Source: Mesorhizobium sp. (GTDB lineage: Bacteria; Pseudomonadota; Alphaproteobacteria; Rhizobiales; Rhizobiaceae). From it: a DNA stretch of 64,000 bases. Below are positions 24,858 through 27,800 of this stretch, in pieces. The position numbers and the translations under genes were made by a program. The notes beneath the pieces are model-generated. The model searched no databases and was not told where the DNA came from. It was given only the letters and a program-made list of their open reading frames with translations. The stretch is taken from the NCBI RefSeq assembly GCF_017306545.1, contig NZ_JAFKID010000016.1, positions 115,613 to 179,612 of the forward strand, read 5' to 3'. How positions within the stretch are numbered: position 1 is the first letter of the stretch; each line of letters begins with the position of its first letter.

Positions 24858-27800
24858 TTAGTGCCCCGGCCGGCCGGATTTCTTCGGCCGCCGCGTCTGG
24901 CGGCGCTGGTCGGTGGCGTCCTCGTAAGAGCCGATACCGGTGCGTTCGCGCTTGATCGGCTTCACGTCCTCCGGCTTCGCCGGCTTCATGCCTTCGACCG
25001 GTTTTTCTGTGCGCCGTACCGTCATTTCGTCCAGCGAGTTTTTGCGGAACAGCGAGGGCTTGTTCTCGTCCGGAACGCCATAGTCCGAGCCGTGCGCCTC
25101 CTGCGCCGACTGCTTCCTGAACAGCGAGCGCGATACGGCGCCGGCCGGCGTCGGCATGTCGGTGCCGGGTCCCATATGGTCGATGTGCGGCTTCTGGAAC
25201 AGTGATTTGCCGAGCGGCCTGGCGCCGTCGGCGCCCATTTCGTCCAACTGCGGCTTGGCGAAGAGTGAACCTTCCTTCTCCCCGTTTACGGGGAGAAGGT
25301 GGCCCGAAGGGTCGGATGAGGGGCGGCGCCCAACATCGGAGGCGTTCGCGCCGCCCCTCACCTGCCTGCCGGCATCCTCTCCCCGTGAACGGGGCGAGGA
25401 ATCCCTGTCGTCCACCGTCCGGTGCCGTTCACGGCCCTTGTTGTGCTTGCCTTTCTCGCGGCCGGAAACCGGGCTTTCGCTCTCGGCATATTTCGCCAGC
25501 GGGTCGTCGGAGATCTGCAATTCCAGTTCGGTGAGCCGCTTGATCTCGTCGCGCAGACGGGCGGCATCCTCGAAGTTGAGGTCGGCGGCGGCGTCGCGCA
25601 TCTTTTTGTTCAGATGCTCGAGATGCGCCTTGAGGTTGTTGCCCATCATCTGGCCGGCATCGTCGGTGAACTGCGAGATGTCGGCGCGGACGTGGTCCTT
25701 CTCGTAGACAGAGTCCAGAATGTCGGCGATGCGCGACTTGACGCTCTCGGGTGTGATGCCGTTGGCCTCGTTGTATTCGAGCTGCTTTTCGCGGCGGCGA
25801 TTGGTTTCCGCCATCGCCCGCTCCATCGAGCCGGTGATCTGGTCGGCGTAGAGGATGACCTTGCCGTCGACGTTGCGCGCGGCGCGGCCGATGGTCTGGA
25901 TCAGCGAGGTTTCCGAACGGAGAAAACCTTCCTTGTCGGCGTCGAGGATGGCGACGAAGCCGCATTCGGGAATGTCGAGGCCTTCGCGCAGCAGGTTGAT
26001 GCCGACCAGCACGTCGAAAGCTCCAAGACGAAGATCGCGCAGGATTTCGATGCGCTCCAGCGTGTCGATGTCGGAGTGCATGTAGCGCACGCGAATGCCC
26101 TGCTCGTGCAGGTATTCCGTCAGGTCCTCGGCCATGCGCTTGGTCAGCACCGTGCAGAGCGTGCGGTAGCCCTTCTTGGTCGTCTCGCGGATTTCGCCGA
26201 CGACGTCGTCCACCTGGCTCTTGGCCGGACGCACCTCGACCGGGGGGTCGATCAGGCCGGTCGGGCGGATGACCTGCTCGGCGAAGACGCCGCCGGACTG
26301 CTCCAACTCCCAGCCGCCCGGCGTCGCCGACACGCCGACGGTGAGCGGGCGCATGGCGTCCCACTCCTCGAAGCGCAGCGGCCGGTTGTCCATGCAGGAG
26401 GGCAGGCGGAAGCCGTATTCGGCCAGCGTCGCCTTGCGGCGGAAGTCGCCCCGGTACATGCCGCCGATCTGCGGAATGGTGACGTGGCTTTCGTCGACGA
26501 AGATCAGCGCGTTGTCCGGCACGTATTCGAAAAGCGTCGGCGGCGGATCGCCGGGATTGCGGCCGGTGAGGTAGCGCGAATAGTTCTCGATGCCGGCGCA
26601 GGAGCCGGTCGCCTCCAGCATCTCCAGGTCGAAGCGGGTGCGCTGCTCCAGCCGCTGCGCCTCGAGCAGGCGGCCAGCCTTTTCAAGCTCTTGCAGGCGG
26701 TGCTGCAATTCTTCCTTGATCGACTTGATGGCCTGATTCAAGGTCGGGCGCGGCGTGACGTAGTGCGAGTTGGCGTAAATTTTTACACTCTTCAGGTCGC
26801 CGGTCTTGGAACCCGTCAGCGGGTCGAATTCTGTAATAGACTCGATCTCGTCGCCGAACATCGAGATGCGCCAAGCGCGATCCTCAAGGTGGGCCGGGAA
26901 GATCTCGATGGTGTCGCCGCGCACGCGGAACGAGCCGCGCACGAAATTGGCGTCCTGCCGTTTGTACTGCTGAGCGACCAGATCGGCGAGCAGCTGCCGC
27001 TGGTCGAGGCGGTCGCCGATCGTCATCTGGAAGGTCATCGCCGTGTAGGTTTCGACCGAGCCGATACCGTAGATGCATGACACCGAGGCGACGATGATGA
27101 CGTCGTCGCGCTCCAGCAGCGAGCGCGTCGCCGAATGGCGCATGCGGTCGATCTGCTCGTTGATGGAGGATTCCTTCTCGATATAGGTGTCGGTGCGCGG
27201 GACGTAGGCTTCCGGCTGATAATAGTCGTAATAGGAGACGAAATACTCGACCGCGTTGTTGGGGAAGAACTTCTTGAACTCGGCGTAGAGCTGCGCCGCC
27301 AGCGTCTTGTTTGGCGCGAGGATCAGGGCAGGGCGCTGCGTCTCCTCGATCACCTTGGCCATGGTGAAGGTTTTTCCCGAGCCGGTGACGCCGAGCAGCA
27401 CCTGCGTGCGGTCCTCGTTGGCGATGCCTTCGACGAGGTCCTTGATCGCGGTCGGCTGGTCGCCGGCCGGCTGGAAGTCGGACTCCATCTGGATAGCGAT
27501 GCCGCCTTCGGATTTCTCCGGGCGTTCGGGGCGGTGCGGCGTCCACAGGACGCCGTTCTTGTGCAGCGGGTTGCCGCTCTCGATCAGGTCGGCCAGCGCC
27601 TGGACGGTGGCGGTGACGCCGCTGTTGCTCAGCGTCTCGGCATCTTCCAGCGCAATATCGAGGCCGGCGACGGGATTCAGGCCGGCCGCCGCGCGCTCCT
27701 TGGCCGAGGCCGCGCCGCCCATGGACGTGCCGCGTGCGGTGCGCGTGGGGGAGGCGGAACGCTCCGGAACCTTTTTCGATGGCTTTGTTTTGGACGGGCG

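Follow-up and report, generated by a model that had tools for sequence, protein, structure and literature searches.

A palindromic repeat in frame in the tail of a Mesorhizobium uvrB gene

How does a palindromic repeat come to lie within the reading frame of a core DNA-repair gene and leave that frame intact? The question is raised by uvrB in a 64,000-nucleotide stretch of Mesorhizobium sp. DNA (contig NZ_JAFKID010000016.1; the window hereafter), where the gene occupies 24858-28034 on the minus strand and, by Pfam and PDB sequence matches, encodes a UvrB of 1058 amino acids. Residues 877-922 of this protein (RDSSPRSRG...GEKEG) are read from a palindromic element at 25269-25406 on the minus strand, which was delimited from the sequence and by comparison with the closest relative. 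The element belongs to a repeat family of its own genome, its site is empty in the closest relative, the frame runs through it, and copies of the family are present or absent between sister species. We consider it highly probable that, once this lineage had diverged from that relative, a copy of a repeat resembling the Rhizobium-specific intergenic mosaic elements (RIMEs) entered the 3' end of uvrB, between modules of the tail and with a net length divisible by three, and was tolerated there.

The core of UvrB and its UVR motif end at about residue 834. The Pfam UVR match covers residues 805-834, and the best solved UvrB chains (best 60 of 82 matching sequences in a PDB sequence search) align within residues 171-838, leaving the N-terminal extension and the C-terminal tail outside. 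Disorder was called by the charge-hydropathy rule, in which a value is compared with a dividing line. The tail falls on the disordered side (0.359, line 0.423) and so, barely, does the N-terminal extension (0.412 against 0.419); the core, at 0.449 against a line of 0.426, falls on the folded side. The tail is hydrophilic and probably disordered. Of 146 genus genomes searched, 145 gave a readable tail (G122, 79% complete, was omitted); three tail modules are retained in 143, 144 and 145 of these tails and the last module in 140, and inserts fall between the modules.

The predicted DNA fold of the element comprises an outer hairpin at 25274-25299 (CCTTCTCCCCGTTTACGGGGAGAAGG), a small stem at 25304-25315 (CCGAAGGGTCGG), a central 13-bp stem at 25317-25360 (25317-25329 paired with 25348-25360), a second small stem at 25363-25374 (TGCCTGCCGGCA) and a second outer hairpin at 25375-25400 (TCCTCTCCCCGTGAACGGGGCGAGGA); the centre differs among the copies compared. 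Folded as single-stranded DNA, 25270-25406 reached a minimum free energy of -48.3 kcal/mol, compared with -28.8 (standard deviation 3.2) in shuffled sequences (z -6.2), and none of 200 shuffles was equally stable. Every part of the composite palindrome that the preliminary description had named, hairpins and inverted pair alike, is present, but its span (25272-25406, residues 877-921) was three bases too narrow and ended one residue early. At the gathering score Rfam gave no match at the element, the sole match in the window being ar15. A phage origin was rejected as well, with no element match among 50,697 phage records. The idea that the element is designed to code found no support: the mean over 18 full copies was 2.22 open frames, about the shuffled expectation of 2.08. 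This copy is open in four of the six frames.

The closest relative, G011, is 94.8% identical over the uvrB core, and its uvrB site is empty. The flanks, 93% and 90% identical, there enclose 13 bp, against 136 in the genome under study (G000). The UvrB of G011 is 41 residues shorter and reads VDD-SATDA-SLFRKP where that of G000 reads VDD-RDSS. A relative without the element is what had been proposed as the check on an insertion. The frame had been described as unbroken, and it is, with a net gain of 41 codons; the insertion itself stands, but its net length is 123 bp and not 135. We found neither conservation of the segment at the protein level in distant genera without the palindrome nor a lack of other copies, the two results that had been held to speak against it.

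We refer to the palindromic family of the uvrB element as F1. In G000 (4.82 Mb, 66 contigs) BLAST gave 88 matches to the element, many of them a single place counted on both strands. The forward hairpin pattern matched 104 times with up to two mismatches and 129 times with up to three, and the reversed pattern gave none, which supports the interpretation of the segment as one copy among many. By eye, full copies follow the scheme TTCCTTCTCCCCGTnnACGGGGAGAAGGTGGCCCGAAGGGCCGGATGAGGGGCGGC - variable centre - GCCGCCCCTCACCTGCCTGCCGGCATCCTCTCCCCGTnnACGGGGCGAGGAA. Eight of the 28 printed copies (L017, L018, L020, L021, L022, L024, L027 and L029) have one end exchanged for a hairpin of the type GAAAAGCCAA...TTGGCTTTTC, and the family is therefore mosaic. 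Ends like AGCTCTTCC...GGAAGAGCT, seen by eye and uncounted when we looked for terminal inverted repeats of the miniature inverted-repeat transposable element (MITE) type, occur in part of the copies. A further copy lies in the window at 38184-38319, in the gap between an enolase-superfamily gene (36944-38155, minus strand) and a GMC oxidoreductase gene (38330-40135, minus strand), and 25340-25397 forms a 58-nt inverted match of 81% with 38267-38324. The parts of the uvrB element recur there, as first described, but in the opposite arrangement, with the GATGAGGGGC arms outside and the hairpins inside.

We examined 48 distinct places in G000, a subset of the copies: 28 were taken from the 30 best matches (without L009, which lies at a contig end, and with L028 and L030 counted as one place) and 20 were chosen from the remaining lists. 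An open frame runs through the element at 12 of these places. Two of the frames, uvrB and xdhC, are Pfam-supported gene frames, nine have no Pfam match and look, by eye, like shadows of genes on the opposite strand, and L005 was outside the Pfam run. The other 46 places have no Pfam-supported gene frame through the element, which is not proof that each is intergenic. The element does not look built to code, so its copies in coding sequence appear to have survived from a process that is mostly non-coding, in places where the protein forms a hydrophilic linker.

The flanks of 18 other full copies were sought in G011, using BLAST coordinates. Five sites are empty there (L002, L004, L012, L013 and L014) and six are occupied (L003, L006, L015, L026, L028 and L011, the last followed by other sequence). 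Therefore F1 has moved since G000 and G011 split. At L019 the right part of the element is present and the left side unmatched, and at L005, L007, L008 and L010 other sequence lies between the flanks, at L008 a different palindrome with an arm like that of the family F4 described below. The searches with L016 and L023 gave no resolved state. Forward hairpin counts at up to two mismatches were 104 in G000, 67 in G011, 24 in G108, 14 in G097, 10 in G062, 9 in G065, 8 in G061 and 1 in G083, with 0 in every control.

These observations most probably reflect the following course of events. Once G000 and G011 had separated, a copy of a RIME-like repeat of about 130 bp, present in high copy, would have entered uvrB at its 3' end. 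The insertion point would have been between conserved short modules of the hydrophilic, probably disordered tail, and the net length divisible by three together with the open frame would have left the DNA-repair core untouched, so that the insertion was tolerated. We infer movement by an enzyme acting in trans, neutrality of the insertion and this order of events. Several observations weigh against this account. Target duplications are inconsistent: 4-bp repeats occur at two empty sites only (L002, TCAT/TCAC, imperfect; L014, TGAG/TGAG), and none was seen at L004, L012, L013 or uvrB. No mobiliser was identified. Y1_Tnp (PF01797, E 0.001) matched in none of seven genomes (G000 and six relatives), and RAYT was rejected as the mobiliser on this ground; the same search was positive in five of 14 control genomes. 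When the xdhC copy was used as a DNA query, G012 (84% over 51 bp) and G130 (88% over 41 bp) each had a single weak, partial match, so the F1 family is not wholly absent from these two genomes. The pattern search found F1 in the uvrB tail of three of the 145 genus genomes, G000, G062 and G065. The latter two hold a half element only, at the same uvrB offset as in G000, after GAYGACAG, which is compatible with a shared insertion of old date or with local recombination. On the simplest reading the element was inserted twice, independently and at one base, once in G000 and once in G062/G065.

In a uvrB-core tree of 20 genomes, G000 and G011 (0.996) stand in a 0.999 clade with G031, G012, G130, G073 and G030, and G062 and G065 (0.995) group with G063 (0.893). 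A single old insertion in the common ancestor of G000, G062 and G065 is unlikely; G000 would then have retained the whole element and G062 and G065 half of it, while slippage-type deletion would have removed it from G011 and the other lineages. This reading would account for the identical offset, for the remnant SATDAS of G011 beside SATQSN in G065 and for the CAGCG repeat that flanks the half element in G065, as expected from deletion, and the partial matches in G012 and G130 could be its relics. However, on this tree it requires at least four losses (G011; G012-G130-G073-G030; G031; G063), and among the lineages with a loss only G011 has any hairpin at up to two mismatches (controls 0). The lack of such hairpins in G012, G130, G030, G031 and G073, which share the 0.999 clade with G000, speaks for the later insertion.

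A shade less probable still is a transfer of the insert between species, in which a G062/G065-like donor supplied a short tract of uvrB by homologous recombination. Both groups have the same site and the same first half of the element, and the first 15 bp downstream of the G000 insert agree with G062 and G065 at 15/15 positions and with G011 at 12/15. Upstream, however, the 150 bp next to the insert follow G011 (142/150 identical, compared with 121/150 for G062 and 121/150 for G065), so the tract would be hardly longer than the element, and the copies of G062 and G065 are half elements only. That the segment is ordinary UvrB sequence with a retained palindromic DNA form and no insert is scarcely credible: the four open frames of this copy agree with it, but the G011 site is empty, other copies exist, only three of 145 genus tails hold F1, and the full copies are about as open as shuffled sequence.

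The second in-frame F1 copy of G000 lies in xdhC (L222:480-1492, contig C51), between the Pfam domains XdhC_CoxI and XdhC_C. Eight relatives (G012, G130, G030, G031, G063, G062, G065 and G108) have a short linker there, and G061 was unreadable. In G011 the same linker contains an insert of a different family, F4. This palindromic family (PPTPTPSPRGGGE...PLWGGGRGEG), with 85 matches in G000 counted on both strands, also occurs in the window at 28755-28856, in frame inside a capA-like gene (28225-29400, plus strand), as seen from the sequence, Pfam and relatives. Ten relatives were searched for the capA-like insert: G011 has it too, G031, G062, G063 and G065 are 123-129 bp shorter at that point, and five have no capA match.

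Two further repeat types, F2 (SPLVGEMSGRTEGG) and F3 (RSEPRSGDSVSE), sought with fuzzy patterns, stand in frame in uvrB tails. F2 precedes the last module in 70 of the 145 genus tails. It occupies the site of F1 in one tail (G083), and five more F2 tails were not placeable by script. F3 lies at one site in the tails of G062, G059 and G093 and at another in G063. Among 12 genomes counted, F2 matched 31-49 times per strand in G062, G083, G097, G006, G074, G133 and G108, 5-6 times in G065, 0-2 times in G063 and G059, and not at all in G000 and G011. F3 is of low copy (0-4 matches per genome in ten genomes), and its standing as a dispersed family rests on few copies. In G023, G029, G085 and G098 (four of 143 complete tails) the reading frame shifts or stops in the F2 region, at the cost of the last module; either the tail end is dispensable in these genomes or the sequences contain errors.

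Beyond the genus, 79 of 80 named uvrB loci were readable, among the loci listed. The F1, F2 and F3 patterns matched 25 times in 44 kb of tail (2, 19 and 4, respectively), compared with twice in 204 kb upstream. Both upstream matches are F3, in frame in the UvrB N-terminal extensions of L283 and L300, so the helicase core of the loci read is free of pattern matches. One strand and frame is common to the 19 F2 matches, and likewise to the six F3 matches; many of the matches are co-inherited and not independent. The reversed F2 control was not clean (six matches, five in tails and one upstream), so it is the excess, and not single F2 matches, that counts as evidence. F2 was read in the DNA of Sinorhizobium shofinae, Rhizobium sp. 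CCGE 510, Shinella sp. SUS2 and R. halophilum. Separately, the UvrB N-terminal extension of L237 contains a peptide resembling an F3/F4 mosaic, and the Rhizobium uvrB tails L306 and L309 contain other repeat-like peptides (SPHGEAGVQRPSNHPGE; LPLEGGGRSEAAGGG...PPPQGEG), which may be translations of further repeat families.

Where the same or other families recur at one point of uvrB or xdhC, we favour many insertions of which selection left those in a few tolerant linkers, and a target preference may lie behind the recurrence. We tentatively suggest that the N-terminal extension and C-terminal tail of Rhizobiales UvrB may lengthen as unrelated palindromic repeats are captured in frame again and again, with separate lineages using the same points, strand and frame. 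Dispersed repeats could thereby supply the material from which linker peptides in a core DNA-repair protein are made; we would rate this at somewhat under an even chance. A caution that follows is that some residues in the long UvrB tails of this group derive from repeats.

Two other features of the window were recorded. The alphaproteobacterial small RNA ar15 (Rfam RF02345) matched at 51754-51867 on the plus strand with 55.7 bits. Related direct repeats of 160-230 nt, with 75-77% identity, lie at 18354-18582, 18794-19022 and 60440-60601.

Where does F1 stand among known repeats? RIME1 is reportedly a Rhizobium-specific intergenic mosaic element, described by Osteras et al. in 1995. It is the closest known repeat, because F1 has matches in S. 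meliloti and on Rhizobium plasmids. On pSymB of S. meliloti 1021 a 124-bp match (71% over 91%) carries the arms GGATGAGGGGC and CCTGCCGGCA; the record has no gene annotation, so this match cannot be called intergenic. F1 is matched by 196 plasmid records (Rhizobium 105, Sinorhizobium 58, Shinella 21, others 12, the last including a single Xanthomonas and a single Planctomyces), and a match in Nitratireductor (H1) lies between two annotated genes. RIMEs are described as intergenic sequences whose function is unknown (PMC2573895) and are listed among repeated elements (PMC2245857). Like RIME1, F1 is a dispersed, multi-copy composite palindrome of a rhizobial genome, with relatives in Rhizobiaceae including S. 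meliloti and with mosaic copies that have swapped ends. Unlike the intergenic RIME1, it has copies in frame in uvrB and xdhC. We call it RIME-like and not RIME1, as these two copies are not intergenic.

REP elements, which are associated with RAYT transposases, are a second point of comparison. They are described as high-copy hairpin units that also form mosaic arrangements (PMC3733652). F1 shares both properties, whereas the Y1_Tnp domain expected of RAYT-mobilised REP elements had no match in G000 or six relatives.

The Rickettsia palindromic elements (RPE) were reportedly described by Ogata et al. in 2000 and 2002. They are palindromes of 105-146 bp (PMC2229807) that insert in frame into Rickettsia genes and are read through (PMC2229807, PMC10969869). 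F1 likewise appears inserted in frame in protein genes, with an open frame in uvrB and xdhC. It differs from RPE in being rhizobial and in that few of the places examined (2/48) are gene copies. The likeness to RPE first proposed holds for the in-frame behaviour; the closest known repeat is RIME1, and gene copies are exceptional. A literature search of titles and abstract beginnings, covering few subscription journals, found no in-frame palindromic repeats in rhizobial genes among the matches listed. Rickettsia provides the most familiar examples of in-frame palindromic repeats, and isolated cases are found among other small repeats (PMC10969869). To these systems the rhizobial genus adds in-frame repeats that come with naturally empty sites and half elements, and with one site that different families occupy in sister species. 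This makes it testable how such repeats move and whether a coding insertion is merely tolerated or adds a usable peptide.
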